Of a stretch of 64,000 nt of DNA, positions 5,139 to 59,676 are shown in pieces (within the stretch, counting starts at the first letter, position 1; every line of letters begins with the position of its first letter). The notes beneath the pieces were generated by a model. The model had not been told where the DNA came from. It made no database searches and saw only the letters and a program-made list of their open reading frames with translations. The stretch lies in contig JAQMWT010000361.1 in the NCBI GenBank assembly GCA_029834535.1, positions 94,225 to 158,224 of the forward strand, in the 5' to 3' direction. The translations under genes were made by a program, and so were the position numbers. This DNA comes from Chrysophaeum taylorii (lineage: Eukaryota; Sar; Pelagophyceae; Pelagomonadales; Pelagomonadaceae).

Positions 5139-5194
5139 CTAAGGCACATCATCTTGCGACCAGGCGTGGTCCGTCCGCGACGCGTGGTCGCACT

Positions 5195-5232
<38 letters not shown>

Positions 5233-6221
5233 GCGACGAGTCGGCGGTGCTCGTCGATGGCAGATCTAATGGCGTAGTTTGGGACGAGGTGCTTCGAGTC
5301 CAAGGGCAGGCCAGTTTTGGGCGAGGTGTCGTGCGCGACGAGCCAGTGCGCTATCGCGCGTCTTTCGTAGGTATGGCCGTCGGAGCAGGTGACGGGGTCC
5401 TGGAGGAGTTCCCTCGTGATCGAGCATATGAAAGCGTCCGGGAGCTTGACGGCAGCCACGAGAAGTTTTTCGCGGTAGCGCGCGATGCGTCGCGCGGCGG
5501 CCGCGACGTCGTCCTCGAGGGCGGCGAGCTCGTCAACAGACATGCCGTGGAGGTCGTAACCCTGGCGTTGCTTCAATTCGGCTCGAAGGCGGTCGCACTC
5601 GGCGCCGAGGCGATCGGCGGTGGCGCGCGCGGCGAGGAGGTCGTCCAAGAGCTGCGTCGACTGCGTCTCGAGCCCCGCGACTCGCCGTCGATCAGCGTCG
5701 CGACCGGCCTTCTCCTCGCGCAACGACCGACGCGCTGCTTCGAGCTGCAGCACAAACGTTCGTTGAGGCTCCTCGGGGTGCTTGCGCTGCGTCATGGGAA
5801 GCGCCGGAAGAACAGTGGCTTCGCGATGGCGCGCGGCGAGCGATCGGAGGTGGCAGACGATCTCGCCGTAGCCCGCCGCGGCCGCTGCCTCGAACGCCGT
5901 CTCGCCTCGCGCGTCGGTCGCGTCGACGTCGGCGCCCGCGTCAATCAGTAGCTTGCACAGCGCCTCGTCACCCCGTCGGCAGCACACGTGCAGGGGATCG
6001 CCCTTGCTAACGTCGCTGCCGTGCGCCAGTAGCAGCGACACGATTTCCTCGTGGCCCTGGCGACACGCGGCGACCAGTGCGGTGTCGCCTTCGGCCGACA
6101 CCCACTCCACGCTCGCGCCGATGGCAAGCAACGATTCCACTTCTTCGTACCCCCCGCCCTTGGCTGCGGCCCACAAAAACGACTCCTTCATACGCTCCAG
6201 CTGTTGCTTTGCCAAATCCAT
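5139..6221 (-). CDS. Ankyrin-repeat / U-box E3 ubiquitin ligase
   Basis: A 360-residue frame from ATG 6221. Residues about 15-135 form three to four ankyrin repeats (e.g. GDTALVAACRQGHEEIVSLL, GADVDATDARGETAFEAAA). A coiled coil follows (about 155-250), including HGMSVDELAALEDDV. A U-box sits near residues 258-325 with ICSITRELLQDPVTCSDGHT, YERRAIAHWL and the conserved PNYAIRSAI end. The U-box recruits E2-ubiquitin; the ankyrin repeats are presumably the substrate-binding side. A poly-Ala run near the C-terminus is encoded by a GCC/GGC repeat at about 5197-5232. It is divergent from the SDR gene with 164 bp between starts, and its 3' end converges on CSN7 91 bp away. The ankyrin-first, U-box-last order is less common than the plant armadillo form. 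Confidence 0.85.
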
Positions 6222-6385
6222 TTGTGTGGCGCTAATACACTGTTTCAACACTCAAACCCTTATGCGACGACGAACGAACGACACCAGAGCAATAATATAA
6301 GTTGTAATTCCCTAAACCCTCAAGTAATAATGACCTCTTAGCTTTTTACTCCCCCCTTACCCTCTTTGAGCATCGCATCGCATCC

Positions 6386-12135: not shown

Positions 12136-15100
12136 ATGGCGGCCGATGTGCTAGACCTGGCTGGGACGCCGCTCACGGACGCGGCATTCCGGGGGCTCGT
12201 GCACCGCGGAGTGCGCGAGCTACGGATCGACCGCACAGGTCTCACGGACGTGGCAATGCGCATCATCTCCAAGAGCGACATGCGGCTCGAGATCATGTCC
12301 GCGACGCATCTGCCGATCACTGATCTCGGGGCGTCAGCCGTCGTGCGCACCAGTGTCTCGTCTGAAAACTCCAATCAGTGACTCTCGCATCTAGGTGCGC
12401 TCCATGCCGCTTCGCGAACTCGACTTGTCGTACTGCGCACGTCTGGGGGGGGAGGTGTTCAGCAAGGTACGCGGGCTGCGGGCGGTTGCGCTTGGGGGCT
12501 TGCCTCGTGTCGACGACGACGTGTTCGCGGATCTTCTGGCGAACAATGATCTCCAAAAGCTTGAGCTGCGGGACGCCGCAGTGACTGACCGGTCTGCGCG
12601 CGCGTTGACGTCGACCAAGCTCGCGTGGGGCCGCAAGCGCCGAGAGCTGCGCCTCACCGAGCTCACGATCGAGAGGTGCGCTAAGATCACCGACGTTTTC
12701 GTCGAGCGCCTCGCCAAATGCCCTCTAGTTCGCGTCACGCTGCGCGACGTGGAGGTGCGAGGGTTGGGCTGGCTCAAACGCGTCGAGTTCCTCGACGCGA
12801 GCCGGACGGCGGTGAGCGATTTGCGCGGCCTGCCCAAGACACTTCGCGCGTTAGACGTGTCCGAGTGCAAGATCACGCAATTCATCGAGTGCCGAGATCT
12901 TCGCTCGTTTAAGGCCAACAAGACCACATTGAGAGACCCAATCGCCCTCGCGTCGAACCCGCTTCGCGAACTCTCGCTGAGCCGCTGCCCGCTGTCCGAC
13001 AAGTGCGCGGTTCTTTTGGTGAGACGACTCCGCCGTCTCCGGCGCCTCGATCTCTCATTCTCTATATCGTCAAGAGTTCTGCGGGAAATCGCTACTTTGA
13101 CGTGCCTTGAGTTTTTGGATGTTTCGGGCATCGTTGATGAGGCGGCGGTACAGCTGCCGAGAGTGCGAGAATTACGAGCCACTGATTGCAATTTGAACTC
13201 GGCGGAACTACCGTGTGAAATTGTAGACGTTTCAAGATCGCGCGTAGGGACGGCGACGGCTTTGAAACTTGTCGAGAAAAATCTTGAGAAAATCACCTTG
13301 ACGGGGTGTCCCATCGACTTTGAAAAGGTGCGCGAGAGGGTCACGGAGCATCCGTTTCTGTCGATGATCGAGCCGACCGTTGTTGGGCGCTCTGCCGAGA
13401 ATCAAATGGCTCTCGACGAGTGGCGGGAGAAGATGCGCCACAGAGCCGCGATCGTCATCGGAGGTTTTTTTGCTACGTTCTTCAAGTCGCCAGCGGAGGA
13501 GGAGCCTGAGCCTGACGACGAGCCTGCTGTCGAAGGAGGAGAAGACGTGCCTCCCGAGATCCCAAAGGTGCAGAGGACACTGCCGGACGTCGGAAGACCG
13601 GAGGTGCGGTCGTGCGAGCCGCTCGAACAGCCGACTCTCGCTCCCGTGATCCCAAAATCGTTTCTGCTGCTCAAAATATTCCGGAAGTGGCAGGCTTACA
13701 AACGGGAGCTCCCATGGGCTGCCGCGGACGCGCTCTTTAAGCGACGAAGACGACCATTGTTCGCTTTGTGGAAACGCCACGCCAAGCTAGCTGTGCGGAG
13801 ACGCCGACGGCTCGTCGCCGTGTTCCTTCAATGCGTCAGCGCGGAGTCGTACTGCGGCGAGCTGCGAGTAAAGGCAGAGCTCGCGGAGCGTCACTTCCGA
13901 CGAAAGAAGCTGCGTCAGCACTGGCCATTAGCGATTGTTGGACCCAACAGATACGTCCTTGCCCTCGCGGCGATCCGCCGGCGACGATCTGCCGCTCTGG
14001 TCCCGCGAGTTTTTGAGGCCTTCTGCATCTACAGACTCCACAGAATCCACCAGCGCCGTAGGAGCCACATCCCAACAGGGCCGCGATTTGCTGTGCGACG
14101 CATCCACCGCGTCGCCGTGATGCGAATCCGCGAGCGGAGAGCGTCCGAGATCGCCGACGAGTTTTGGAGCGAGAGACGGCTAACGTTGGCACCACTCTCG
14201 AGATGGCGTCTCGTGCGAAAGCACCTCAGACCAGCCATGGCTCTGGCCGAGGACCACTACGAGACCTCGTTGCAACTCCGATTTGAGCGAAGCTGGCCGG
14301 CTTGGTTGGCCGTACTCGATCGCGCTCGGAAAAGAGCACGGCTACGTCGAAGCCAGCAGGCAGTCGAAACCAGCGTGCTCTTGTTGTTGTTGTTGTTGTT
14401 GTTGTGACGAAGTCGTCTTTGTAGATGTGAGTGAAAAAGAGCTCGCAGAAATCATCAATCTCGCGACAGGTAAAAGATCTCGCGAGGCATCGGTTCGCAA
14501 TGCGGTCTTTGTGGCGGTTCCGGAGTGGGCTGCTCAGCGCGCGCGCCGAGCGGGTCGTCATTGCTGTGTTGCTCTCGGTGGCAACGGAGGTGGCCGGGAC
14601 GATTGGCCTCACGGCGTCCATCGTGACGCAGAGAGAGGCAATTTTGGCTTCGGTGGCCGCTGCGAGGGCTCGAGTGACACTGAGCCTCGGCGAACGGCGC
14701 GACTTTTCGTTAGAGCAGTGGGAGCGGAGCGCTGACGAATGCATTCTCACGCAACGTGCTGCTCTACGGCTGCAGACAGCGTACCGAAGGGCACGCGACG
14801 CGCGTCTGGTCGAAGAGTATCGTGCGTGGCGGGACTTTGCAGTTTTGGTGCTCCAAAAGAACGTCCGACGATGGTTCGCTCAACGGCAACTCTTTAAACT
14901 TCGGCGGCACCGGGTCCTTCGGGAGACAGTCACAGCCGAAAACGAGCGGCTCGCGATGGAATCCGAGGAAGAAGAAACTCGAGAGTTTCTTTATTTGGAG
15001 ATAATGTGGCGCCGCGTCGAGAACCTCGTCCGCCGAAAATTGGCTTGGAAGCGAACCGCAACGCTCCGGGCGGAAATCACCAAACACAAACAGCGAGCGT

Positions 15101-18100
15101 TTCTTACCAAAAGAGGCGCAGACATCGAGGAGATGCAGCGCCGCGAGCAACAAAGAGCGTTGGACGAAATTCGAGAGACTGAGGCTGCGTTGGCCATTCA
15201 GCGGCGCTTTCGAGGCGCGGTCGGGCGACGAAGGTTCAGGAACAAGCTGCACGTGCAATTGGACGCGCTCGCAGCCATACGATGCCAGACGGCGTACAGA
15301 GCGGCGATGGGCCGCAGGAAGGCTGCGGCAATGCGGCGGACGATCGCGGCGCAACAATACTTTCGAGCGAACCGACGAGTGCAAGGCGCCGTGTTGCGGT
15401 TGCTCGGAAAGAAACAACGAAAAACGCAACGCGAACTGCTGCGAGTGTTGGTCCCACTCGGGCTAGATCCTTTGTCGTTTACATTATCGCTCAAAGCGCA
15501 GCTCCGCGATCTTCGCGCCGATATGCTGCGGAAACCTGTGCCGCCCGTCGATTGCGGCGATCCCGTCCAACACCGCTCTGGAAAAACGGCGTTCCTTGTG
15601 GCGATCGACAAGTCAATCCCGGAAAACCCCGTGGCCGAGCTGACTTTTGATGATGACGGCGGGCGTTCGTCCGTGCCCGTCGATGCGTTAGTCAAGTTCG
15701 AGCGAGCAGCCAAGCGCAAGATTCGCATATTTTCGGCCGCGGACAGGGCGGCGTTAAAAATACAATTGCTTGCGCGCCGCCGACAGGCGATGCGACGCGT
15801 AGCGAGACACAGATATGCCTTTTGGCGAGATTCCCACGCCAAACGGCGCGTCCTTTTGGCCGTGTTGACTTCGTTTGACGCGTTGCAACACGACGCCGTT
15901 CGCGTGCTTCGTCGGTTGCACGGACTCCGATTGGAGCATTTTGATTTGCCAATTGTCCCTTCGGCCTTTGCCAAAGTTCAAAGAGATAAGCGGCTCGAGC
16001 GCCAGATCAAAGCCGAGCTCAAACTACGCGCGCACTTACGGGCGAAGCGAGTCCGACATTTGCGGAAAGGTGCCCGCCCGAACAACGCCGTCAAAAAGGC
16101 GCTCTTCGGGACCCAAACAATGACGACCGTGAGAGACAGCGAGGCCGACGAACGCGACTGGGCGCGATTCCTCAACGCAGCGCCTCCGGCGCGCCAGATG
16201 CGAACTCGCTGGGCACCACCGTTTCTCCATGCACATTTTCTCTTTGGCGCGGACGCCGTGCTCGCTTTGGCCGTCCGCAAGAAGCTTGCTACGGCTGCGA
16301 CGAGCGTCCGCGCCAAGCCGATTGATATCTCCACGCAGTTTGGAAGATCTCCACACCTTCGTGTTCGCGAGGTCGCGTTTTACCACGGCACTTGGCCCGA
16401 GGGCGAAGGATTCCTCGAATTTCTCGACGGCTACGGCTGCGAAGAGGAAAAAACTCTTCGAGTCCGCATCATCCGTGCCCAAGACCTCCGCGCCAGCGAT
16501 TTGTCCACGAGCGACCCCTACGTCCGAATAAAGTGCAACGGACGGACCTTCCGCTCGAGGACCAAGCTCCGGACGTTGAATCCAGTGTACGACGAAGTCT
16601 TCGAAGTGGACGTGAGCGACCCCAAGGAGCGCCTCGTGTTGGAACTTTGGGATTGGGACAAGTTTTCTGCTGACGACTACCTCGGTAGCGCACAGATCCA
16701 GCTCGGGGCGATGGACCTCACGGCGCCAAGGCGATTTTGGATATACCTCGGGTGCGTACGTGTTTTCGTGTGCGTTTTTTTTTGGACGTCAAACGCGTGT
16801 GTTTTTGGACGTCGCAACTCCCGGTACTGGGACACAATGAGGGAATTAAATTTGTGTCTTCCCTTCGAATGATGCCACGGTCTCTGTCTCGAGAAGTGCA
16901 TCGGCAGCTTAACAACAGTGCCTGATCGCAAAAGAAAAAACAACAACAATATTCGTGTACTTTAAGTCGCGTTGACAATGCAGACAAATGATAGGACCAG
17001 CAACAAGTCCGACGCACATAACTATAGTGCCCTTGATGATGGTCGCGCTTGCACACATTTGATCAGTCTGTCGTGTCGACGAACGGCTGGCAAACAAAAG
17101 TAACGAATTTATTGTTTCAAGTGGTTGCATCATAATCTCTGCTCTCTTGTAACTCTCTCCCTAGGGGACTGATGATCCCACGTTTGTGTGTGTGTCTTTG
17201 TTTTTTTGTTTGTTTTTTTGTTTGTTTGTTTGTTTGCTATCAGAAGTCTTGTCTCACAGACTGGGGTTGGATGACCGATGACCTCAGGTACTACCCTTCG
17301 CGAGGGCAGCAGACGCACGACAGAGGAGCATTGGAGATAGAATTGCAGTGGATGGAGAAAATGAGTGCCGAGGATCTTGACCTGCGCAGAATGCGAAGAC
17401 GGGCAGCCTTGCGATTGGAGACCTGGGCCCGCGGCCGCTTGGCCGTCATCCAGCGGCGTGCCTTGGAAAGGTCGCACAGAACAGCGTTAAATTTCATTTT
17501 CGAGTCGGCTTCTACAATTCAAACGACTTGGCGGGCACTGATGTCGAGGAGATTCGTGAAGAAAGTGCGCGTCCAACGACGAGCCGCGCTGCGGCTCCAG
17601 GCACTGTGCCGTCGGAAGCTCGCCTTTTTGGATTTGCAGGAGCTTCGTAAGCGGTTTCACGCAGCACTGACGATCCAGAGGATTCGGGGGGCAAGGCTGC
17701 TGGCCGCCCGACTGCGGCTCGTACGATGGATTGAGGAGACGTATGCCGCGTTGGTTATTCAAGCGTTCTCGCGCTCGCGCGTACGGCGGCCACGCGCTCG
17801 AAAAGGGCCTTTAGATTGGTTGGCATGGTACGGGCGTGATTTTTTGTATGGCTCCAAGCGACTTCGTCGTATCTGCCACAGAGCGATGCGGGTCCTTCTG
17901 AATACAGGAGGGAGAGTACGGACAGTCTATGGTCATGCTATCGTGATAAGCGTCAACAGATTCATCACGGTGATTTTGCTGCAGACGACGCTTGAGAGAA
18001 CGACGAGGGCCGAGCGTGCGGAGAGACTCGCAACCGCGCCAAGACACACTGCCGTTCTCAGACCGGCGAGCCTCTTGACCAAGGTAACTATCCTCGAGAA

Positions 18101-21100
18101 AGTCGTGATGCTCCAGTGCCTCTTCAGATTCACCAAGGCCTGCCGACACGTGTTCTGTCTGTTCGAAGAGCACCGCGCCGCGCGACGCGTCCAGCGGATC
18201 GCGCGGAGGCGATTAGGCCAGAAAGGCAGAGCTGCGATTAAGATACAGACGCGAGTCCGCGTCGATTTAGGGCGCAAAGCGCTCCGAGAGCTGCGAAAAG
18301 AAGTTGCCGCAGCCGTAAAACTCCAGTTGAAACATCGCCAGCGGCTCGCTCTGCGACGTCTCGAGGACAAGCGATTGGCTGGATGCACTGCCTGCCTGTG
18401 TTCGTCTGAATACTTTCCGGCGTCTCTGACGCTGGAGAGCAAAGGCTTCTGGAGTTCGAGTCGACCCAACAAACAGTGGATCGTGTACGACATGCAGGAC
18501 CCAACATGCATCGGCGTGTGCGATTTGATCTGCCCAGACAACACGACTGCTCCGCGATTTGTAACGATCGACGTCAGCGATTCTGCGACCGGATCATTCG
18601 AGACGCTTCTATCTGCCGAGCTTTGTGCCCCGCGGAGCCTTTCCGAGCTTCGGGTGCTCGAGAAAAACGCCGTCGGCCACAGGCTTCAACTCCCGCTGAC
18701 GCTAAGGAGATTTTGGCGACTTTCATTTTTGAGAAACTGGGGGAGCACGGAGTGCGTCGCTCTCAGTCGAGTGCGGTGGCTTGTAGCCAAGGAGTTCTCG
18801 CCAAATATCCTGCGACATCCCGACTCACTTTTTGTCGAGGGACCGCAAGTCGGGGGTTGGGTGCAATTCGAGTTGTCGATCGACGCGTTCGCGTGGCCGC
18901 CGCCCGAGTTTGAATGGTTTCGAGACGGCCACCCTGTGGGAAAAGGTGCCACCCTCAACGTAAAAAGCCGCGTGCTTCGGAGCGCGGAGACTAAGAAGTT
19001 TAGATGCCCACACTGCCGAAAAGTTAACAGAGACGTGCCGAAAAACGTTTACCGCACCCTTTGCATGAACTGTCAGACTGTCTTCAACTGGCCAGAAGTG
19101 ACCTACAAGGAGCCTATTGACGATGGCGAGATCAGCCGACTAAAGCGTCAGCTCGAGCGCGAGAAGGAGGACTATGCGAGTCTCGAGCTCCAGTTGCGAT
19201 TGCAGAATAAACCAATCCCCGATCGGGACCTTTCGCTCGAAAAAATGATTCAGCAAAAGGAAGAAGAGAAAAAGCGGCGAATATTTGAAGCGCTTAAGGA
19301 GCCGCGGCTGCTCGAATATGACTGCGAGGGAGTGTATACCTGCCACGTGTCAAACATGCGCCGAACGATTCGACGAACTGTTATTTCGGAGCCGGCAGCC
19401 ATATTGGTCGGCGACCCCCCGCCCTTGAAGACAAAAGTCGTGAGTGACTTCAGGCCGAAACCGCACCGTCGAAGAAAACACTTCGAAAGGTACGTGTCAG
19501 TACACGGTTTTTTTCGCCGAGGTGTCGTCTCGGGAGAAGTTATCCTTCGCTACGCGTCGGGCGACACTTACTGCGGGCCTATAGTCCCCGAGAAATTGCT
19601 CGACCATATGGGAGTATCGCGTCCAGGAGCAGACCACTGGGGCTTGTGGATCATGCCGGATGGCACGAGGTACGAAGGAGCGACTGTGGACAACCATTTC
19701 GATACGAGGAGAATAGTCGGTGACTTTCGGGTAACGACGACGACAGAAGTCTACGACGGCCAGATCGTCGACGGCAAACGCCACGGCTTCGGAGAGTGAG
19801 TGCTTGTGTGTGGTTGTTGTGCGCTGCCTTGGATAATAATAGCACCGGTGTGCTGCTCGCGAAGTATCAGGCGCAGCGGTGAAACGCTTGAGTCGCTGTC
19901 GCGAAGTATCAGGCGCAGCGGTGAAACGCTTGAGTCGCTGTCGCGACTTTCATTGCGGTGCACGCGATTGTCTCGAGATAGGAACGAAACGCGCGATCAT
20001 TGCTTGAACAGATGTATTTGTTGTGCTGTATGCAATGAACTCGCGCGATCACTGGAACATAGGTGTCGGTATCCGGACGGATCTTTGTACAGTGGGGAGT
20101 GGCACCAAGGCCTTCGACAGGGCTTCGGTCGATTGGAAGGATCTTCAGTCTACGAAGGAGACTGGGATAGGGACGCGATCCACGGCCAGGGGACGTGGCA
20201 TTGGAGGGATGGCTCTTCGTATTGCGGTGAAGCGGTGCACGGGATTCGGCAGGGAGTGGGCGTCTATGTGTCAGAGAAGCACGACGTGTTCATCGGCGAG
20301 TTCGCTGACAATCAGATGCATGGGAAAGGAGTTTTATCATACCACGACGGCTCCCGTTTTGAGGGCGAGCTTTCGATGAATAGCCGCATTACTGGCGTTT
20401 TCACTGACATCCACGGGGTCCGTTACTTTGGAACCTACAGAGACGGGGTCCGCCACGGCGAGTTTCTGGTTCGGAGACCGGTGGGCGACGCAGACGAGAT
20501 TCAACAAGGCTTGTGGGAGAACGGGGAGTTTATCGAGTGGACGACGCTCCCGTTGAATCCGATCGCGACAGAACAGTTCTGTTCCGTGTTTGAAAATGAG
20601 GAAGAATATGATGGAGTTTATGCGCTAATGGTCGCGACCAGAGTTGATTCTGCGCGTATTGCCGTCGGAAAGCTGTCTCCGCAGCACGCAGAAATTTTCA
20701 CGCGTACGCGCGCGTGTGTGTGTGTGCCACTACGCGTGTTGTGAAGTGTGTGTGACACTCGCGTGAACCAACCACGCAGGTTGCCCGCCGATTGCCGTTG
20801 TTGCCGCCAGGGGTGCAACCGGACCATCCGAGGGTGGTGCCTATCGTAAAAAGGATTCGCCGGGAAGGTGGGAATCTTGTGGCGAAGGATACGTACGAAG
20901 AGGCGAAGGCCGAACTGCTGCGTATCGAGCCCGAACTTGCAGAGGTCGCGACAGCGATGCGAGCGGCACGCGCGGAAATCGAACGTCACAGCGACTTTGT
21001 CAGCGAGAAAGAACGAATAGTGAGTGGTTGTGATCTGGAGATTTCAACGCTGGAAAAGAAGAAGCGACTCGTCGAAGCCAAAATTTCGAAATTCTGGGAT

Positions 21101-23676
21101 ACGGAGAAAGCGCGGACGACGTTCGAAGCAGAGTCCTCAATTCACTCGGATTGTCGTCTGTGTCTATGTGTGTGTGACCTTTTTCGTAATTCCTGTCTTG
21201 TCGCGCCGCCTGGGCGCGCCACGCACGGGGCGGGGCGCGTGTTTCGAGCGTCGCGTTTAAGAGTTCCCGGCGGTCTGTGTCTTGAGCTCGACCACAGGTT
21301 CGACGCGATTGTGGCAGAAATCGAGGAGGTGCCTGTCAGAGATTTTTTTGTCATTCGGTACTTCCCCGAACCGCCGCCGTTGCTCGAGAAAATTATGCGC
21401 GCAACGTGTGGTGTTTTGGGCGAGCCCGAATCGTGGAAATCGGCGCAGCTTTTGCTGTCTGCGAGCCAGCAAAATGCAGACGCGGGTGACAAAGAAGCAC
21501 TACTTGCTTCCTACGAAGTAAAGCTCAAGCACAAGCTTCAAAATTACGACGTCTGGAATGCTGATCTGGATGCCCACAGACGAGTCGCCGGAATTTTGGT
21601 AGATCCGCGATTTTCATCGACGCACCATCACGTAACATCCTACGGCGTTGTGCCGCCGCTCTTGGTGCGGCTCGTAAGAGCTGCCCACGCCTACGTCCTC
21701 CGGTCCAAGGCCATAAAAGAAACGAAACTTCAGTTGGAGGAGATCCAGAACGCGCTGCAAAACGCCGAGCTTCGGCGGAGCGAAGCAATCACGGAATCGG
21801 AACAAACAACCCTGCGGTACGAAGCGAAGAAGCGAGAACTCCACGAAACGGAAAGCACTGGACGAAGAACGGAGCGACGCGTCGAGAAAGTTAGGGAACT
21901 TGTGCTACAGTGCGAAGCCATGATCGAAGAATACAGATCCGACTCGGAAACCGAGGAGGATTACTACAAGGCGATCGACAAGCCGGACGTCTTGGCAACA
22001 ACTTTGGACGTCGTGTGCAGAACTGTCGAAAGATTCTCCACCAAGGCTAAGCTCGTCGGAGTGGCATTTGGTTTGGATCTGGACGAAGATAAGCTCGAGG
22101 CACAGAAGGCGATCCAAGCCGCCAAAGAGAGAATTCCAGTGGGTCACTTTTCATTGATGGAGTTTGCGAGGCACACCGTAATGAGCAGTGTCAGCATCAT
22201 CAGAATTTTGTTGTCGTGGCACTCGCGGGCGTGTCGTAGGCACCACCAGCCTATGTCTCAAATAGGACCCAACAACTCATTGATGCAGTGTGTGTGGTCG
22301 CGTTTATGACGTGCTCTTTGTAGGTCTCGTGGCTTCGAAAGCAGATCATCGGAAACTCGGAGTACTCTGGTGGAAAGTTAAGTTTACAGCAGTCGTTCGA
22401 CCCTACGCCGGCCGTCGAAATCATATGCAACGCGCTCAAAAATTACTGGCTCCCGGGAATCGATCTCGCCTTTGTCGACGTCTTGGTGCGCCATTTGTGG
22501 CTCGAAGAGGCGCGCGTCGCTGGCCGGAAAGCCGCGGTCGAAGCGTGGAATGCTGCGTTCGAGGATCCAGCTTCCATGGCAGTAAATGCTCGCACGAATT
22601 GGGTCATGTCTTCGAGTGCGCGGCGAGAAGCTGCCATCTGGGCTGAAGAACACCCTGTCGAAATCGTCGCTGCCGAGGCAGCCATCGCCGAAGCATTTGA
22701 AGCGGAGCACGAACCGACGGACGAGGGCGTGGCGCGCGCCGCATTGAGGATCCGCGACGACAGGGAGTTGGGTCCGGATGCCGTGTGCGGCGCGACGGTT
22801 TGGTGCAAGCTGCATCCCGAGTGGGTAGAAGCTGTGATGGACGACGAGTTCGACCTCGCGGCGGACTTCGAAGAAGAGCAGGCGACGCCTGCTTTAGCTG
22901 CCGCGCGGATTCTGGCCGGAATAACGGAAGACTTCGAGGACGATGACGGCAGGGACGCGCACAAGGCACGAGCCTGGGCGAATTCGCACATTGAGGAGCT
23001 CCGCGAAGCGGAGCAACAACTCGGTGACGAACTCGCGTCAAAGTTCGAGGAATTATTTTCTGAAGACGCGGCTGCAAAGGCGGTGCGCTCAATCGAGCCT
23101 GGCACTCCAGCGAGATTCCGCGCGGCCGGGCGTGCGTGGCGCGCGCGGCACCAACGCGAATTCAATGACGCGATGGAAGAGCGCGTCGCTCAACGCGAAT
23201 TGGAGGACCAAGACAATGCGTCTCAGATCGCCAGACTGAGAAAGAGGCTAGAAGAGAGACGGAAAATCGCGCAGCAGAGAGTAACGGCGAGAAACGCCCA
23301 GCTCGCGAGGGCCGACGAGAGGCTGCGAGTGGAACTCCAAGCCGCTAACGAAACAGAAAGACGTGGTGCGGAAGGCGACATAGATAGCCTCAAGGCCGAG
23401 TGTGTGCAACTACTGGAGTACCGAGTTTCTACCCATGCGCTCAAACTCCAGCACTGCGAAGAGCGACTCTGGTTTGTCCAAAGCGACAGGGCGTACCTCG
23501 TCTGCGCCGTGCCTTCTGCTCGCCCGTCGGACATCAGCGCCACCATTCAAAAACAGAAGATCCAGCACCTCCGTCTTCTTGACGCGCACCAAGCGGCATT
23601 CGCGGCCCAGCAAGCCACACTCCAACACCTTCGGACGCAGCTCAACGACCTCCACAACTTCACTCTAGACTGCTAG
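12136..23676 (+). CDS. Giant multidomain protein: LRR - IQ - C2 - IQ - Ig-like with zinc ribbon - MORN - dynein-stalk-like
   Basis: Predicted exons: 12136-12342, 12395-14374, 14470-16751, 17324-19795, 20063-20703, 20811-22177 and 22324-23676 (about 3,400 residues). Phases agree at each join. Domains in order: leucine-rich repeats (exons 1-2); IQ-rich helices (13.7-15.9 kb); a C2 domain near 16.44-16.75 kb (LRVRIIRAQDLRASDLSTSDPYV) whose last strand ALEIELQW is in exon 4; more IQ motifs; an Ig-like fold at 18.84-19.42 kb interrupted by a CPHC...CMNC ribbon and a coiled coil; MORN repeats across the 19796-20062 intron; then coiled coils around a stretch like the dynein microtubule-binding stalk (PPPLLEKIMRATCGVLGEPE, W-K-S-A). 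One more intron is likely at about 21155-21298. Less certain are the 572-nt intron 3 (donor GTGCGT or GTACGT) and intron 5. It may be two genes, but the C2 and MORN continuity argue for one. Likely a calmodulin- or centrin-binding microtubule scaffold; function is inferred. Confidence 0.7.
19858..19941 (+). repeat. Perfect 42-bp tandem duplication inside an intron
   Basis: Two identical 42-bp units (19858-19899 and 19900-19941) starting CGCGAAGTATCAGG lie inside the 267-nt intron between the MORN exons. A third partial CGCGA follows. The duplication makes this intron longer than the 40-60 nt typical here. Confidence 0.95.
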
Positions 23677-24789: not shown

Positions 24790-25887
24790 TCACTCGCGCG
24801 GTTGTGAGGGCGATGCAGGCCACTTTTCTTCGTCAAAGCGGGAAGAAGAAGAAGAAGAAGAAGGGAGATCGGGGGGCATCGTAGTTGGAGGGAGCCAGCG
24901 CGCAAAGTGGAGTTGCGCGGTCGGTACTTCCTCGACCGAGGCAAGGAAATACCAGGTCTTGACGATTGGATCCCATCGCGCGCCCTTTGCCTTAGCATCC
25001 TCTTTTTCCGAGTACGGGCAGTTGAGGTCTATTCGCACGAGCGTGCCGGACGGGACCTGGATGCCTCCCTTGGCGACGTCGTCGTCGTCGGTTGCGTTTT
25101 GGGGGGATGGCCGGAGAACGCCGGTTGCCCAATCGATGGGTTCGAGATGTCGTTTCTCGAGCTCGATGTTGGCCTTGGTGAAATGGCCTGACCCAAAAAA
25201 GCCGCGTCGCGCCGAGAGCGGGCTCGGGTGCGGGGCTTCGAGCGCGATTGTCGTCGAGGCAGCGTCGAGGAGGCCGCCGACTTTCTTGCGCGCGTGGGCG
25301 CCCCAGAGCAGAAAGATGACGCCGCGCGGCACGAGCGCGGCGACGACCGCGTCGCTGAACTCTTCCCAGCCGCGGTCCTTATGGCTCGTCGGCTGGCCGG
25401 CTCTCACGGTGAGCAACGTGTTAAGAAGCAAGACGCCTCGCGAAGCCCACGGCGACAGGTCCCCGGCGTCGTCGTCGCGCTCGGGCAAGCTGAGGTCTCG
25501 CCGGAGCTCCTTGAGAATGTTGCGAAGTGACGGCGGCGTTGGGCACTCGCCAGCGACGGAGAACGCGAGACCGTCCGCTTGCCCCGGGCCGTGGTACGGG
25601 TCCTGGCCGACGATGACGACGCGAACGTCGTCAAAGTCAACCTCCCGCAGCGCCCGCAGCGTCCGGTCCGGCGGTGGGTACACCGTGTGCGCCGCGCGCT
25701 CCTTCGCGACAAATGCGCGCAGCGCGGCGTGTCGTTCCGTCGACAGCTCTTCCGCGAGCACTGACGACCACTTGGGCGGCAAACCCCACTCGTCTACGGC
25801 GGCGCCGTGTCGGACGACGTTCTGGCTTCGAAGAATGGGAGCCAGCAGCACCGAGCTCCGCCTCGCGAACGACAGCAACTTGCGCAT
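24790..25887 (-). CDS. UNG: Uracil-DNA glycosylase family 1 with a C-terminal DUF5710-like domain
   Basis: A 365-residue frame from ATG 25887. Family-1 motifs are intact: the water-activating block GQDPYHGPGQADGLAFSV, LLLNTLLTV, the uracil-pocket region IFLLWGAHA, and the HPSPLSARRGFFGSGHF loop. Residues 1-25 (MRKLLSFARRSSVLLAPILR) are a good mitochondrial presequence. After the catalytic domain, near residues 288-330, comes RIDLNCPYSEKEDAKAKGAR followed by WDPIVKTWYF. This matches the small DUF5710 module seen in bacterial and phage DNA-metabolism proteins. The tail is Ser-rich. It removes uracil from DNA as the first step of base excision repair, probably in mitochondria. The extra module is not part of standard UNG. 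Confidence 0.92.
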   Translation of the reverse strand: MRKLLSFARRSSVLLAPILRSQNVVRHGAAVDEWGLPPKWSSVLAEELSTERHAALRAFVAKERAAHTVYPPPDRTLRALREVDFDDVRVVIVGQDPYHGPGQADGLAFSVAGECPTPPSLRNILKELRRDLSLPERDDDAGDLSPWASRGVLLLNTLLTVRAGQPTSHKDRGWEEFSDAVVAALVPRGVIFLLWGAHARKKVGGLLDAASTTIALEAPHPSPLSARRGFFGSGHFTKANIELEKRHLEPIDWATGVLRPSPQNATDDDDVAKGGIQVPSGTLVRIDLNCPYSEKEDAKAKGARWDPIVKTWYFLASVEEVPTAQLHFARWLPPTTMPPDLPSSSSSSSRFDEEKWPASPSQPRE

Positions 25888-26125
25888 CGGTACGTGTCGC
25901 TTACCCCCTATAGCGAGGATAGCTGGGGCGGCACGAAAAGCGCCGTCGTCTAGTCCACGACAGGCACCGAAGCGTGTGAAGAAAGGCCGCTACACTACCC
26001 CCCGGCCGTCGCAAATTAGGACCCCAGTACGCCACGGATACTCAGCCACTTGCGCTTTATTCTTCTGGCTCTGCCAGCCTGGAGGTTGGTTTTCAGTAGG
26101 ATTCGTAGAAGACTCAGTGAATCTC

Positions 26126-46206: not shown

Positions 46207-48144
46207 CTAACTCTGATAGCCTCGCTCGTCGTCGCTCCAGCCGCTTCGCCATTCGCGCATCCAGCCGGGCCCCATGCGCCTCGGGTCTCTGAGGCTGTGG
46301 ACGCGGCCCTTGGTGTGATAATAGCTGGCCTCGCCGAGACCGTGGTAGCCCCGGAGGCGGTGGATGAAGCCAGAGAAGGTGGACCAGAAAGTGCCCGCAA
46401 AGACCTTGGCCCGCGAACAGACGAGCTGGTCGACCATGCCGAAGTGGTTGGGGTTGAGGTCGGGAAGGAGGGTGGACCGAAAATCGTCGAGCACGAGAAC
46501 GGTCCAGCCGTGACGCGCGAAGGGGTCCCAGGATGGGTCGTCGGGGCAGCCGTACTCCTTGGGTCTGGGGACCGGGTAGGAGGAGCAGGGCTTGCGGTCG
46601 TACATGCAGCCCTGGCACTTTCCCTTTGGGTCGTCCGTGGCGAGATACACGAGCGCGCCCCGGGGGATGATGTCGTAGCCGCCGAGGTTGTCGATAATCT
46701 CCTGGGCGCCGATCTTGGCGGTTCTATATTGAAAGTCGTTCCGGCGCGCGTGGATCGCATAATAAGTGCCGTTGCGGTCGCGGATAGCGCGGACAACCTT
46801 GTCGGCGGCGCATTGGATTTCGTCGCGATACCTCGCGTAGTCTCTCACGAACCTGCGGTAGAACGCCGCCGCCCTGGGATCTGCGAAGAAGGCAAACGAG
46901 TAAAAGTTCATCAAGATGCGGTGTTCGCCAGACCCCGCGGCGTGGAGATGCCTCGCCGCGCGCAGCCCTTGATCGTAAAACAGCGGTTGGCGTCCCTGCG
47001 CGAACGCGTCGAGGCGCCGCGCGAAGCGACTAGACCTCCGGCCGGGCTGCTGCTTTCCGTGCCGCAGGTGTGTGGTGGTCGTGTTGATGATCGAGTCGTC
47101 CGCGAGGTCGCCGTCGGGAAAGACGAAGAATTTTCGGGTGACGGGGGGGAGCATTGCGTCGGCGTTTCTCTTCATAAAGCCCCAGAGCGCCGGTCCTTTC
47201 GACTGGGCGGGCGGCTCAACTCCCTTGCTCCGGACGACGTCCGCGAGGAACTCGGGCATCGGCCGCGTCTTCCAGCCCCGGTGCGAGCTCAAGAGTGTCA
47301 CGTTTAAAAAGGCCGCGAGCCCAAACGCCCGCCGTTTCTCGAACTCCTTTGAGACGAGGTAGAGCTGTTGAGCGGGCGGGAGCACGATCGTGCGTCCGGT
47401 AACGTGCGCGAACACGAGCATGCACTCGACGCCCATCCGGATGTTGTTCCAGCCGCCGGCGTCGTACTCGAACGTCAGGAACTGCTCCTCGCCGCCGGGT
47501 CTTTTGTAAGGCGCGCGCTCCAGCGCGCGGTCCGCCGGCACGTCCCGCCAATAAATCAGCTCCGAGTCTACAAACCGCCCGTCGCACGTCAGCGTGCCGC
47601 GCGGCGCCCCGGCGGCCTCGTCGTGCGACGCGTACCTCGCCGCCGCTGCCGTCCGAGGAGGCGGCCCAGCACCTTTTTTTGAAGAAGGCCGCGGCGGCGG
47701 CGACGGCGGCGGCGGCGGCTTCTCGATCGGTCGTCCAGACGTACTCGTCGTGGTCGTCGCCGCGGTACTATTGTCCGCCAACCGTGGTGGTGGCAGTCGT
47801 CGTCGTTGTCCTGGGGGTGGCGGGGGCGGGATCGTCGCCGGCGCGCGCGTCGTCGTCGTAATAACCGGATTCTTTGGCAGTAAGTTTTTGGTCGGCGGAT
47901 TCGCCGCGGAGAAGAAGAACTTGCGCGCGAAGTTTTCCCTTAAGGCCTGAGCGACCTCGGCGGGGTGGTCGATGACAGCCCTCAAGTGCGTCCTTTCGAG
48001 GTGCGGACGCACCCCGAGCAAGACGAGGAGCATCCAGAGCGCGAGGAGCGGCCCGACGCACGCGACAACCCGCGCCGGGCGCACACGCTTGGCCCCCATT
48101 CGACGACCGTTTTTCTTGTAGGGGGGGGGGGAAGAACCCACCAT
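46207..48144 (-). CDS. GDP-fucose O-fucosyltransferase-family protein
   Basis: A 645-residue frame from ATG 48144. It is type II: a short basic N-terminus and a membrane anchor (VVACVGPLLALWMLLVLLG), then a long Pro/Ser/Thr-rich stem (residues 100-170). The catalytic region starts with GGWNNIRMGVECMLVFAHVT and TGRTIVLPP, as in plant and algal O-FucT proteins. Later come YYAIHARRNDFQ, the H-x-R-x-x-D site that binds GDP-fucose, and VFAGTFWSTFSGFIHRLRGY, the S-T-F-S-G-x-I-x-R-x-R-G-Y signature. It probably transfers fucose to protein or glycan in the Golgi. It partners functionally with the nucleotide-sugar transporter in this window only by inference. Its ATG is 16 bp from that of the divergent GCN5-PHD gene. 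Confidence 0.85.
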   Translation of the reverse strand: MVGSSPPPYKKNGRRMGAKRVRPARVVACVGPLLALWMLLVLLGVRPHLERTHLRAVIDHPAEVAQALRENFARKFFFSAANPPTKNLLPKNPVITTTTRAPATIPPPPPPGQRRRLPPPRLADNSTAATTTTSTSGRPIEKPPPPPSPPPRPSSKKGAGPPPRTAAAARYASHDEAAGAPRGTLTCDGRFVDSELIYWRDVPADRALERAPYKRPGGEEQFLTFEYDAGGWNNIRMGVECMLVFAHVTGRTIVLPPAQQLYLVSKEFEKRRAFGLAAFLNVTLLSSHRGWKTRPMPEFLADVVRSKGVEPPAQSKGPALWGFMKRNADAMLPPVTRKFFVFPDGDLADDSIINTTTTHLRHGKQQPGRRSSRFARRLDAFAQGRQPLFYDQGLRAARHLHAAGSGEHRILMNFYSFAFFADPRAAAFYRRFVRDYARYRDEIQCAADKVVRAIRDRNGTYYAIHARRNDFQYRTAKIGAQEIIDNLGGYDIIPRGALVYLATDDPKGKCQGCMYDRKPCSSYPVPRPKEYGCPDDPSWDPFARHGWTVLVLDDFRSTLLPDLNPNHFGMVDQLVCSRAKVFAGTFWSTFSGFIHRLRGYHGLGEASYYHTKGRVHSLRDPRRMGPGWMREWRSGWSDDERGYQS

Positions 48145-48160
48145 CCGCGATCAATCAATC
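48145..48160. promoter_or_regulatory. 16-bp divergent intergenic region between two ATGs
   Basis: Only 16 bp separate the start codons of the O-fucosyltransferase (-) and the GCN5-PHD gene (+). Their 5' UTRs and promoters must overlap each other's coding sequence, unless one true start is downstream. For the minus gene an in-frame ATG lies 14 codons in (MGAKR). No TATA-like string is visible. Confidence 0.5.
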
Positions 48161-49858
48161 ATGTCGGAGGAGGCGTCGTTGTTGAGCCAGCGGTACGAGC
48201 TGGTGGCGCTCAAGGCGGCGTCGTCGGAGGACGAGGAGGCGGTCCGTCGTCTTGAGGCGTTGTCGCGCGTGCTGAGCACGTACATTCCGAACGTGGCGTG
48301 CGAGGAAATGGTCCGCGACGCGCGGTACGAGTGCATCGGAATCGTGGAGAAGGAGACGGAGGAGGTAGTCGGCGGGACGTGCTATCGGGTGTGGCCCGAG
48401 GACAAGACGGGTCCCGCGTTCGTGGAGCTCGCTTTGTTCTGCGTCGACGTCGCGCACCAGGATAAGGGTCTCGGAGCGCGCCTGATGGCGGGCCTCGAAA
48501 GGACGAGCGTCGAGGAGCACGACGCGTCGACGATCCTCGCTTACGCCGACAACCGGGCCTTTGCGTTTTTCCGGCGGCTTGGCTTCTCGCGGACGGTCAC
48601 GACTCCCTTCTCGCACTGGAAGCCGAAGATCATTGATTATTCCCTCGGCGCCGTCGTCGCCGAGAAGCGGCTCGGAGATGGCGGCCCGACCCCGGGGAGT
48701 CAGGCGGCGAACACGTCCGCCGCCGCCGCCGCCGACTCGTCGCGGGCCCTCGCGACGGGCGTGCGAAAGTGCACGAGCGGGCGCGCGAACTGCTACTGCC
48801 GGTCGGGCCGGACGCGCGCCATCGTCCGGTACGACCCGGTTACGGGCAAGGTCCTCGAGGAATACTGCTCGACGTCCGACGCCGCGCGCAAGCTTCACCT
48901 GACCTCGCCCCAGATCACCCACGTCCTCAGCGGCGCCAAGGAGGACGCCAACGGACACAAGTTCCGATATGCCGTCGAGGTCTCGTGGATCCGCGGCGCG
49001 GGGGCGCGCGCCGTCGTCGAGATAGATCCCGCGACGGGCGACGTCGTCCGAGAATTCGACTCGGCCGCGCAGGCCGCGCGCGACCTCGGGATATCCAACT
49101 CGACGATAGGCCTCGTGTGCTCGGGCCAGCGGGACGAGGTCGACGGCCGCGTCTTCCGCTTCAAAGAACCCCGAATCTATCCGTGTGCCGTCTGCGGCTC
49201 TGACCACGACGGCGCGACGCTCCTCCTTTGCGACGGCCTCGACGGACGCTGCGTCTCGACGGCGCACACCACCTGCATCGGCCTCGACGCGGTCCCCGAC
49301 ACGGACTGGTTCTGCGAGAGATGCCGCGCTAAAGGCGAGCACACCAAGGACAAGCGCCTCGCCGCCGACGCCTCGCGCGCCGCGATCGTCGCCAAGCGAC
49401 ACCTCGCCGCCCTCGCCGCCGAGGCATCGCCCGCGAGATCGACGCGCGCCCTCGCCACGCGCCCCCAACATCCCTCAAAGCCGGCCACCAGGAAGCGCAC
49501 CGACATGAACGACGACGACTGTGCCGCCTGCGGCGACGGCGGCGAGCTCTTGTGCTGCGACACGTGCGAGAGGGCCTACCATCTCGAATGCGCCGCCCTC
49601 GACTTGGTTCCGGAAGGCACCTGGAGCTGCGACGTCTGCGTCACCGAAGTCCTCCGCACCGGGACCAAGCGACGGAAGCTTCTTTCTTCTTCTTCTTCTT
49701 CTTCTTCGAAAAGCAACAAAACCAAAGCGGCGGCGGCGGCGGTGGCGGTTCCGCCGAGGCACGCCTATGATTTCGACGCCCAACCCCCCGCCATCGTTTC
49801 CGTCCTTCCGCCCGCGCGTGATGTCAACGCGGGCGTCCCGATCCTCTTCCCCATCTGA
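48161..49858 (+). CDS. GCN5/PCAF-like acetyltransferase with IENR1/NUMOD-like repeats and two PHD fingers
   Basis: A 565-residue intronless frame from ATG 48161. The GNAT domain (about 35-165) follows GCN5: VVGGTCYRVWP, then VELALFCVDVAHQDKGLGAR (acetyl-CoA loop Q-x-x-G-x-G), TILAYADNRAFAFFRRLGF and the end KIIDYSLGAVV. Next come two copies of an intron-endonuclease-associated repeat (IENR1/NUMOD1-like), near 218-265 and 278-330: V-x-[YI]-D-P-x-T-G-x-V, then [SD]-x-x-A-A-R-x-L-x-[LI]-[ST]-x-S-x-I. Two PHD fingers follow, CAVCGSDHDGATLLLCDG with a canonical H and W-F-C-x-x-C, and CAACGDGGELLCCDTCERAY. The C-terminus is Ser/Lys/Ala-rich. It probably acetylates histone H3 at sites chosen by PHD and helix-turn-helix contacts; site choice is inference. 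No bromodomain is seen. Confidence 0.88.
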   Translation: MSEEASLLSQRYELVALKAASSEDEEAVRRLEALSRVLSTYIPNVACEEMVRDARYECIGIVEKETEEVVGGTCYRVWPEDKTGPAFVELALFCVDVAHQDKGLGARLMAGLERTSVEEHDASTILAYADNRAFAFFRRLGFSRTVTTPFSHWKPKIIDYSLGAVVAEKRLGDGGPTPGSQAANTSAAAAADSSRALATGVRKCTSGRANCYCRSGRTRAIVRYDPVTGKVLEEYCSTSDAARKLHLTSPQITHVLSGAKEDANGHKFRYAVEVSWIRGAGARAVVEIDPATGDVVREFDSAAQAARDLGISNSTIGLVCSGQRDEVDGRVFRFKEPRIYPCAVCGSDHDGATLLLCDGLDGRCVSTAHTTCIGLDAVPDTDWFCERCRAKGEHTKDKRLAADASRAAIVAKRHLAALAAEASPARSTRALATRPQHPSKPATRKRTDMNDDDCAACGDGGELLCCDTCERAYHLECAALDLVPEGTWSCDVCVTEVLRTGTKRRKLLSSSSSSSSKSNKTKAAAAAVAVPPRHAYDFDAQPPAIVSVLPPARDVNAGVPILFPI

Positions 49859-56980: not shown

Positions 56981-59662
56981 TCACTGAATAGCACAGAAGC
57001 GGGAGCGCCGAGTCGCCGGCTTTTCAGTTTTGGCGAGGCAGGCTGGGTCAGCAGAGTGGCGCCTCGACGATGGACTAATGGTGGGGTGGCGGTGTTCTTC
57101 TAGGGACTGGGCGCGCTTCTGTAATTGCCACAACTGTCGTTTGAGATGCTCATTCTCCTGTTTGAGGTGATCGTGGTCCCCCTTCAACTTGGAGTACTTG
57201 GCGTCGAGCTCGCGAACTTTAAGCACGGATGCGGCGAGGTCCTGGTCTTCTTTGCGTTTCGTTTGCGCCGTTCCTGCTCGGATGCTGTCGTGCTCGAACC
57301 TCTCGACGGCCCGATCGCGCTCGGATTGCTTCGCGAGTTTCTCTTCGAGGGTCGCAATCTTGGCCCGCAGGGACGCGTTCTCGGCCTCGGTGGTTTGCAG
57401 CTTTTGCGTCGAGGCGCCGTCGTTCTCAATGCGACGATTTTGCCCTATCCGTGAGGCGAGGTCCACTAGGAGGTTCGCGCCGTCGGCGCTACCGCTGTCC
57501 GCGATGCGCTGCAGCAACGCGAGCAGGTCGGCTTGGTAGGCTTGGTCGTGCAATCTCGCCTGATCCTTCGCGTCCAGCAGCCGTCGCTTGGCCACGCAGA
57601 CGCCATCCTCTGGGTCCTCCGACGAGGAGTCGGGGCTAGTACTTCGGTGCGCACCGATACTCTCTGTCGCGGCCGCCTCCTGTTCAGAGCCGTTAATAAT
57701 GTTGTCGTTGCTGTCGTCGGGTGTTTTGTCGAGCGACTCGAGGACATCAATAGTCAGGCGGCCCTCGTCGGGTGGTGACGGCGCCGGCGTCTCCTCAACA
57801 GAAGTGCGGGAGCGCCACTCGTCCATCGGGCTCACCGAGTGGAAATCGCCCTCCTCGGCGAAGCTCGCCGCTCCAGAGTCGCTCGAGGCGCGGACGAAGG
57901 GATGACGATGTTTTTTAGTGTCATCCGAGGTGGGGCGCTTGGTCGGTGAGCGCGTCGCCCAGGTCTCGTGGTCAAAGGCGAGCCCGCAGTGCGGCGCGAC
58001 GTCGGCGTTGGCGTCGTAGAGGTCGGGGCACGCGCGCCTTACGGCGTCGTCGAAGCCCACGAGCAAAGGGCGGCGTTTGTTGCGTCCGAGGGAAAACACA
58101 GAGTCGTAGACAAAGACAAGCTGGTCCATCAACAACCGCGCCAAAAGCTCCCAGTTTGTCTCGTGGCACTCTTCGGCGACCGGCTTGTTGTCCAGGCTCT
58201 GGAAGACGGCGGCGAAGTCGAGCGTGTTGATCGTCGGGCCGGAGAGCTCCTGGCGGCAGCACCCAAAGAGCACCGACATGTTCTTGCCACCAAACGCCTG
58301 GTTCAGCAGCAGCGTGAGCTGGCTGTCTCTGCACTTGGATCGAATGGCGCCCGAGTATGTCTCTTCTTCCTTTGCAGAAAGCGACTTTGGCTTTTCGGCG
58401 GTAAACGCCACGACTTGCCCGAGCGCGAGCAGGGACTTGTTGATCGACTTGGTCTCGCGCATGCGCGTCTCCTTGTCCTTCTTGCCGTCGTGTACCGAAA
58501 TATTTTCGTTTCCGGCGAGATCCACCAAAAAAATCGACGAGAGCGTGCTCTGTGCGTGGCCGTTGGCCTCGCGGCGTTCGACTCTGACCTCGATCTTGAA
58601 GATGCAGTGAGCCCTCGACGAGCGGTTGTTCATCGCGGTCGCCGCCGTCCGCCGGTTCCTCTCGCCAGATCGGATCACGTCGAGCGCGGCGCTCAAGACG
58701 GCGTCGGGCGGGCCGCCGCACATGTTGATGTGCTTTTGCGACAATCCTTTCATGTCGAGGGCGTGCGCGCCGGTGACGGGGTCCTTGACGATCCGCAGCC
58801 GGAACTCCTTGTTGGTCGTCAAGTCGTACAGCTTCTCGTTGTACACTTCAATCAGCGAAAATTTGCAGCTCGCGTCAAAATTGCGCCCCACCAGCGCACA
58901 CCGCGCCCTCTCGCGCGTCGCTTCTTCGGCCAGGCTCGCCGTCACGGCGCGCCGGAGCGCGTCGATCGTAAACGTCTTGCCCGAACCGGTGCCTCCGTAC
59001 GCCATGATCGCCGTGCTATACCCAGCGAAAGCTTTTTGCGCGACCCCGTCGACGAGGTCCTCGGGTGTCGCTGCGCTGTCGCTGGTGAGGACGTGGTCGA
59101 ACCGTGCAGGCCGTCTCTCGCCGAGCCGGAGCGCGTACTTGCCCTCGAAGAACTCGGTCTCGACGTCGGCGTCGCCCGACTCGGGTCGGAAACGAACGAA
59201 CGCAAACACCCCGTTTGTCGCGGCGTGCGGCGCGCAGATCCCAATCGAAAACCGCAGCTGCCGGCGTCGCGGTCTTATCTCCTCCGGCAACGGCGTCGTC
59301 TCGGGAAAACTCACTCGGACGTTTCGCGCGAAGCTCGCGACGCCCGATCCCCGCAGCCCTGCGGCAACGATCACGACGCCCGCGTTCGTCAGGTTGTTGC
59401 CGTCGAGCAGCACCTCCTTGAGGCCGAGTCCCACCAACCTTCCCAAACTCTCGGCCGCGCGGTCGTCGAGCCCACAGTCGCGCATGTCCACGCGAAGCTC
59501 GTCGACCAACCGCTGCTCCCGCAGACCTTGAAAAATCTCGTCGACGTCCGAGCTCGTCATGGGCAGAAACGAAAAGTCGAGGCATGTCGCCGACCTGTGT
59601 GCGCTCTTGACTGCCTTGAGCCGCACCTTCTTCACGCTCAACACCCGCTCGTCGTTTTGCAT
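56981..59662 (-). CDS. Kinesin with N-terminal LRR-like segment, coiled coil and C-terminal CaaX box
   Basis: An 893-residue intronless frame from ATG 59662. Residues 1-130 include a leucine-rich-repeat unit (LKEVLLDGNNLTNAGVVIVA). The motor domain has P-loop AYGGTGSGKT, neck strand FSLIEVYNEKLYDL, switch I AMNNRSSRAHCIF, switch II FLVDLAGNE and helix alpha-4 SINKSLLALGQVV. It then has an acidic, Ser-rich region and a coiled coil (about 740-860). The last four residues are CAIQ, preceded by a basic patch (RRSRF), a good CaaX prenylation signal. The motor is divergent (MAYGGTGSGKT rather than AYGQTGSGKT; SRAHCIF rather than SRSHxIF), so class and direction are uncertain. Prenylation would tie it to a membrane or kinetochore, as with farnesylated CENP-E. 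That is inference. Confidence 0.92.
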   Translation of the reverse strand: MQNDERVLSVKKVRLKAVKSAHRSATCLDFSFLPMTSSDVDEIFQGLREQRLVDELRVDMRDCGLDDRAAESLGRLVGLGLKEVLLDGNNLTNAGVVIVAAGLRGSGVASFARNVRVSFPETTPLPEEIRPRRRQLRFSIGICAPHAATNGVFAFVRFRPESGDADVETEFFEGKYALRLGERRPARFDHVLTSDSAATPEDLVDGVAQKAFAGYSTAIMAYGGTGSGKTFTIDALRRAVTASLAEEATRERARCALVGRNFDASCKFSLIEVYNEKLYDLTTNKEFRLRIVKDPVTGAHALDMKGLSQKHINMCGGPPDAVLSAALDVIRSGERNRRTAATAMNNRSSRAHCIFKIEVRVERREANGHAQSTLSSIFLVDLAGNENISVHDGKKDKETRMRETKSINKSLLALGQVVAFTAEKPKSLSAKEEETYSGAIRSKCRDSQLTLLLNQAFGGKNMSVLFGCCRQELSGPTINTLDFAAVFQSLDNKPVAEECHETNWELLARLLMDQLVFVYDSVFSLGRNKRRPLLVGFDDAVRRACPDLYDANADVAPHCGLAFDHETWATRSPTKRPTSDDTKKHRHPFVRASSDSGAASFAEEGDFHSVSPMDEWRSRTSVEETPAPSPPDEGRLTIDVLESLDKTPDDSNDNIINGSEQEAAATESIGAHRSTSPDSSSEDPEDGVCVAKRRLLDAKDQARLHDQAYQADLLALLQRIADSGSADGANLLVDLASRIGQNRRIENDGASTQKLQTTEAENASLRAKIATLEEKLAKQSERDRAVERFEHDSIRAGTAQTKRKEDQDLAASVLKVRELDAKYSKLKGDHDHLKQENEHLKRQLWQLQKRAQSLEEHRHPTISPSSRRHSADPACLAKTEKPATRRSRFCAIQ

Positions 59663-59676
59663 TTTTATATGAAACG

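Follow-up and report, generated by a model that had tools for sequence, protein, structure and literature searches.

A 64,000-nt stretch of contig JAQMWT010000361.1 of the pelagophyte Chrysophaeum taylorii (positions 94,225 to 158,224, forward strand; hereafter the window) holds a putative giant gene of eight exons at 12136-23676 on the + strand. Its predicted product of 3,402 amino acids (aa) carries leucine-rich repeats (LRR), IQ motifs, a C2 domain, an Ig-like domain, MORN repeats and a region that resembles the stalk of dynein heavy chains. Our results showed that these modules lie in this order in predicted coding DNA, that the stalk-like region is related in sequence to dynein stalks, and that no AAA domain was found in the product. 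A preliminary description, made from the sequence alone, had proposed one giant multi-domain gene with a product of about 3,400 residues; this length and the set and order of the modules stand, and the description as a whole largely holds, with several of its details confirmed only in part. We propose, with a probability of about 0.45 for the whole mechanism, that the eight exons encode a scaffold of about 3,400 residues that is not a motor and that would act as a calcium-responsive, static tether between membrane and microtubules.

The dynein-stalk-like region and the search for a motor ring

Dynein heavy chains have an AAA+ ring, from which the stalk emerges between AAA4 and AAA5 as a built-in leg of the motor. 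Three consecutive features of the putative gene resemble the parts of such a stalk:

20888-21151, + strand: coiled coil 1, dynein-stalk-like, aa 2569-2656 (hidden Markov model, HMM, of dynein stalks from the same genome)
21320-21697, + strand: region like the dynein microtubule-binding domain (MTBD), aa 2667-2792 (phmmer, hhalign)
21698-21937, + strand: coiled coil 2, dynein-stalk-like, aa 2793-2872 (HMM of the same genome; long helix in a low-confidence model)

The comparison of aa 2543-2951 with all PDB chains by phmmer gave three matches at E ≤ 10, and all three were dynein heavy chains. The best one, 8glv_Fm (E 9e-6), spans stalk and MTBD; its deposited name is AAA+ ATPase domain-containing protein, and the dynein-stalk profile of C. 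taylorii matches it at 2.6e-90. A local HMM built from eight dynein stalks of the same genome (70.8 Mb, 697 contigs) aligned with aa 2577-2865 and scored 29.3 bits on the region alone and 22.8 bits within the whole product. Of 2,000 shuffled sequences, the highest-scoring reached 14.7 bits, and the reversed sequence -7.5. Shuffling breaks the periodicity of coiled coils, which makes this control too easy by itself, so real sequences were scored as well; among 409 of them, the next best after the stalk-like region obtained 3.3 bits. Against the same eight stalks, hhalign gave 84.9% (E 6.5e-6) over stalk residues 105-273, versus 0.15% for a control with the C-terminal 450 residues.

The likeness to the dynein stalk (PF12777) comprises coiled coil 1, a block like the MTBD with its Pro-Pro, Trp, Phe and Tyr landmarks, and coiled coil 2. 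The length of coiled coil 1 is nearly identical: from its start to the Pro-Pro kink there is a one-column difference from seven of the eight dyneins, those matched from that point. All eight dyneins share P142, W162, F221 and L238 with the region. Unlike the dyneins, the region has about 15 residues inserted past the conserved Trp, and its coiled coil 2 is shorter by 7 alignment columns. Taken together, the sequence similarity over both coiled coils and the MTBD makes it very likely that the region is a homologue of the dynein stalk; it appears to be a genuine, though divergent, relative.

A Pfam search in pieces covering aa 1-3402 found no AAA family in the product. In the genome, searches for PF12777 and for AAA_8 (PF12780), in which only the best candidates were scored, gave 17 PF12777 matches on 15 contigs, and every one of these contigs had AAA_8 within about 0.6 kb. 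On the contig of the window, neither PF12777 nor AAA_8 was matched among those candidates. Searched against the rest of the genome, the MTBD gave no match at E ≤ 10, and for aa 1518-3402, with 25 of 35 candidates scored, all matches at E ≤ 0.001 fell around the MORN region. At this search sensitivity the gene appears to be single-copy, with the only ringless stalk found in the genome. The dyneins encoded in the genome make it likely that the organism builds flagella. AAA_8 was also matched on two contigs with no PF12777 match (C330:44541-44690 and C267:20398-20730), which may encode either dyneins whose stalks have diverged or giant AAA proteins of another kind.

Gene model and support for the joins

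The model consists of the following parts, with no internal stop codon and with GT-AG at all intron borders:

12136-12342, + strand: exon 1
12395-14362, + strand: exon 2
14449-16751, + strand: exon 3
17288-19795, + strand: exon 4
20063-20703, + strand: exon 5
20811-21159, + strand: exon 6
21160-21297, + strand: intron of 138 nt, in frame and without a stop (codon score negative in three frames; its omission gives a gap-free dynein alignment)
21298-22177, + strand: exon 7
22324-23676, + strand: exon 8

Introns 1, 2 and 5 can also be drawn with different borders (compare models m1 and m2; m2 gives 3,424 aa). Coding signal was scored with a codon-usage table trained on the 8,011 codons of eight dynein loci from this genome, with a penalty for stop codons. 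The proposed frame was preferred in all eight whole exons, with means of 0.0 to 0.23 in frame and -0.22 to -0.69 in the other frames. The preference was narrowest in exon 5 (about 0.0 versus -0.22 and -0.69), and within exons a different frame was favoured by some single 120-nt segments, such as the ones that begin at 15730, 17440, 17710, 17800, 18700 and 19420. All seven introns scored negative in all three frames, including the in-frame intron at 21160-21297. Intron 4 (19796-20062) contains a stretch of about 42 nt present as an immediate tandem copy, as read directly from the sequence.

It had been put forward as support for a single gene that the reading phase is kept at every join. This is true, and it is uninformative, because 219 of the 704 GT-AG pairs across the seven gaps keep the frame, about the third expected by chance. 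Joins 3/4, 4/5 and 6/7 are supported by domains that continue across them. At join 3/4, aa 1-1517 had 18 matches at other places in the genome, all within the C2 domain, and four of them extend in a single open frame to aa 1514-1515, beyond the join at 1492/1493. Join 4/5 is spanned by 20 of the 24 matches elsewhere in the genome and by MORN1 of the PDB; as the MORN array is made of repeats and the majority of these matches start only 11-25 residues upstream, they are support for the join and not proof of it. At join 6/7, the phmmer alignment of 8glv_Fm passes through without a gap. The suggestion that both C2 and MORN are completed only by splicing is supported for MORN, which spans its join; in C2 splicing completes only the last strand, since the Pfam match stops at aa 1490, before the join. 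Support is weaker at joins 2/3, 5/6 and 7/8. We consider it probable that all parts form one gene, which would be read as a single transcript.

Other modules of the predicted product

Outside the stalk, the product carries the features below:

12136-13318, + strand: leucine-rich repeats, aa 1-377, spanning exon 1 and the 5' portion of exon 2 (Pfam LRR_6; coding signal)
13658-14362, + strand: basic region with tryptophans, aa 491-725 (no Pfam family)
14743-15405, + strand: first IQ-like stretch, aa 824-1044, with one full-length motif at aa 975 (IQ below threshold)
16450-17360, + strand: C2 domain, aa 1393-1517, last strand 3' of the 536-nt intron 16752-17287 (Pfam C2)
17385-18380, + strand: second IQ array, aa 1526-1857 (Pfam IQ in one piece; count of core motifs)
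18816-18968, + strand: I-set-like Ig domain, first half, aa 2003-2053 (I-set score; weak titin match)
18999-19085, + strand: zinc-ribbon-like CPHC...CMNC insert within the Ig-like domain (Zn_ribbon_4, below threshold)
19119-19310, + strand: coiled-coil portion of the Ig insert (helices in an AlphaFold2 model)
19311-19415, + strand: Ig-like domain, second half, aa 2168-2202 (Pfam I-set)
19749-20540, + strand: MORN repeats, aa 2314-2488, split by the 267-nt intron 19796-20062 (Pfam MORN)
22537-23187, + strand: possibly about four W...H repeats of about 55 residues each, aa 3024-3240 (self-comparison)
23194-23676, + strand: coiled-coil-like C-terminal tail and stop codon (weak kinesin-like match; stop of the model)

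Pfam confirmed LRR, C2 and MORN. LRR_6 scored 30.8 bits (E 2e-7; cut-off 23.4) in a region interrupted by an intron of 40-52 nt, and a single PDB chain, of generic LRR type, matched this part at E ≤ 0.01. C2 (PF00168) scored 83.9 bits (E 1e-23; cut-off 22) and was found once in the product. MORN (PF02493) scored 75.6 bits (E 1.2e-21; cut-off 22.5), and the PDB matches of its region include MORN1 across join 4/5 (E 3e-21) and radial spoke head 1 (E 4e-14). The regular MORN array is like that of these two proteins. The product differs from them in joining MORN to C2, IQ and a stalk, and in its size: among the best 60 of 116 PDB matches, MORN chains have 146-823 residues.

IQ motifs, which the preliminary description placed on both sides of C2, are clear only downstream of it. 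IQ (PF00612) passed its cut-off of 20.3 bits in one of four short pieces, aa 1526-1665 (21.1 bits); a later piece scored 10.7, the first IQ-like stretch gave 12.6 and 15.3, and IQ was not listed at E ≤ 1 in a Pfam scan of long pieces of the product. After C2 (aa 1505-1900) there are nine core IQ motifs, versus a maximum of six across 2,000 shuffles. Before C2 (aa 775-1180) there are four, a number reached by 88 of 2,000 shuffles and not clearly above chance. Tandem IQ motifs form calmodulin-binding arms in myosins and in proteins of the ASPM type; the array found here is comparable, in the absence of a motor and with other neighbouring modules.

In a printed alignment, acidic positions of the C2 domain align with the calcium loops of synaptotagmin 7 and with ferlin C2 domains, positions that function in calcium binding. 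These retained acidic residues, together with the IQ array after C2, make a calcium response plausible. The product has these aligned loop residues in common with ferlin and synaptotagmin C2 domains; Pfam finds one C2 domain in it, unlike the giant frames with several C2 domains found elsewhere in the same genome.

The Ig-like domain was recovered only when its insert was left out. I-set (PF07679) scored 14.4 bits on the natural sequence, under the cut-off of 23.7, and 24.9 bits after removal of the 103 residues at aa 2064-2166; a weak titin match (E 0.017) was also obtained. The CPHC...CMNC part of the insert gave Zn_ribbon_4 at 19.3 bits (E 0.001), below the cut-off of 30.3. The coiled coil that follows is the best-scoring section of an otherwise poor AlphaFold2 model, with helices in blocks of predicted local distance difference test (pLDDT) values of 86-90. 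The insert as a whole (18999-19310), which contains the CPHC motif, also slightly exceeds the cut-off of Thioredoxin_4 (24.2 versus 23.2 bits). This score is probably due to chance, since the stretch that scores best falls largely within the coiled coil.

The basic region at aa 491-725 loosely recalls repeats of the SFI1 type, which we presume to be a weak resemblance only. In aa 480-775, the pattern [FLWYI]..W[KRQ] occurs three times (a count reached by 44 of 2,000 shuffles) and [FLWYI]..W four times (reached by 328 of 2,000); aa 491-1392 had no PDB matches at E ≤ 1. At the other end of the product, self-comparison of the W...H repeats scored 36, versus a maximum of 32 among 20 shuffles. The C-terminal 450 residues had no Pfam family at its cut-off, and their single PDB match at E ≤ 1 was a weak one to a kinesin-like chain (E 0.06).

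A proposed tether, its alternatives and the genome context

In the mechanism that we propose, the C-terminal third would be a divergent stalk (coiled coil 1, MTBD and coiled coil 2) descended from a dynein heavy chain that left its AAA ring behind. In dynein, the affinity for microtubules is switched by the AAA ring, which slides one coiled coil against the other. The stalk described here may instead grip the microtubule statically. The IQ array with calmodulin or centrin would form a stiff arm sensitive to calcium, and a rise in calcium would make the C2 domain dock on acidic membrane. The LRR, Ig-like and MORN modules could serve to hold either membrane or partner proteins, and the tether as a whole may belong to the flagellar apparatus. 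We infer the binding to microtubules, the response to calcium, the link from membrane to microtubules and the location from the kinds of modules present. A more elaborate version, in which the stalk moved from motor to scaffold and calcium, through IQ, C2 and MORN, switches its affinity in place of ATP, seems improbable to us.

Several results weigh against a single protein with a working stalk. PF12777, the profile first suggested for the dynein-stalk-like segment, was not reached: it gave no match on the spliced C-terminal part at E ≤ 1 in Pfam, nor on the MTBD alone at E ≤ 10, which is the strongest result against the stalk reading; the segment was upheld by phmmer, the local HMM and hhalign. 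Identity with the eight dynein stalks is 14-19%; at the 74 columns conserved in at least six of the eight dyneins, 23 residues are identical and 45 are identical or similar. A passage in the literature describes universally conserved prolines used to delineate the dynein MTBD (PMC6629372). The first delineating proline is present in the product; the one after the MTBD, where coiled coil 2 begins, is found in all eight dyneins and is replaced here by Glu in the alignment used. Two AlphaFold2 models predicted with no alignment had mean pLDDT values of 45.8 and 47.3 and were of too low quality to serve in a fold search. This divergence, the lost proline and the missed profile would fit a decayed stalk or a coiled-coil spacer that does not bind microtubules, in a calmodulin or centrin scaffold held by MORN, LRR and C2 only. 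Free decay should drift, however, and the spacing from coiled coil 1 to Pro-Pro stays within one column of seven dyneins, with four residues still invariant; we regard such a spacer as a possible, rather doubtful explanation. No relative with the same order of modules was found in the C. taylorii genome or in viral and prokaryote contigs, eukaryote protein collections lying outside the search. The MTBD exon matched 33 stretches of viral contigs by pattern and exon 4 matched 10 of prokaryote genome contigs, none of them confirmed. Nor was the architecture described in the titles and abstract openings listed in searches of open-licence literature on the architecture or the stalk.

The weaker joins bear on whether the exons belong together. 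Joins 2/3, 5/6 and 7/8 fall between recognised domains, and in-frame ATGs occur near the starts of exons 2, 3, 4 and 7. Join 2/3 is the weakest, because exon 3 has such an ATG 51 nt inside. With the ambiguous borders of introns 2 and 5, these observations would allow two or three genes on the same strand: one with LRR (12136-14407), one with IQ-C2-IQ-Ig-MORN (about 14500-20744) and one with the dynein-stalk-like region (about 20957-23676). The gaps at joins 2/3, 5/6 and 7/8 measure 86, 107 and 146 nt, and the first two leave little room for a terminator and a promoter. The first in-frame ATG comes 253 nt into exon 5, 146 nt into exon 6 and 252 nt into exon 8; that of the stalk exon (20957) falls within coiled coil 1, with some of the coding signal and of the similarity to dynein (from aa 2577) upstream of it. 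Separate genes are thus unlikely. An assembly chimera or a pseudogene is very improbable: no second copy was found in the genome for comparison, but 3,402 codons run with no internal stop and the modelled frame is favoured in every exon.

If the tether reading is correct, the dynein stalk would be a portable microtubule-binding module, in which the leg was kept and the engine dropped. It would also offer a simple system to study what sets stalk affinity when no ATPase ring is pulling. A stalk packed with IQ, C2 and MORN would bear on how flagellate protists tie together membrane, calcium and microtubules.

Eight other open frames of the genome were scanned, seven of them chosen for C2 matches (L026-L032). 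Those seven carry 4 to 15 C2 stretches each, and GYF and LRR occur in one of them, ankyrin repeats in one; the remaining frame, a neighbour, had no family. The seven appear to represent a group of proteins of ferlin-like or multi-C2 type. As large mosaics are not rare in this genome, a giant mosaic is less surprising in itself, and the motorless stalk is the real interest.

Other frames of the window hold varied domains. The - strand has a frame with ankyrin repeats and a U-box (5142-6251), likely an E3 ligase; one with a Uracil-DNA glycosylase superfamily domain and DUF5710 (24793-25989); and one with a kinesin motor domain (56984-59707), a further gene related to microtubules, some 33 kb downstream. 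On the + strand, one frame at 48122-49855 has an unusual mixture of a GNAT acetyltransferase, NUMOD-type homing-endonuclease domains and PHD fingers. On another contig (L017:1685-1785), a permuted mitochondrial 5S rRNA (Rfam mtPerm-5S) directly follows a bacterial-type small-subunit rRNA, which fits a stramenopile lineage and does not prove it.

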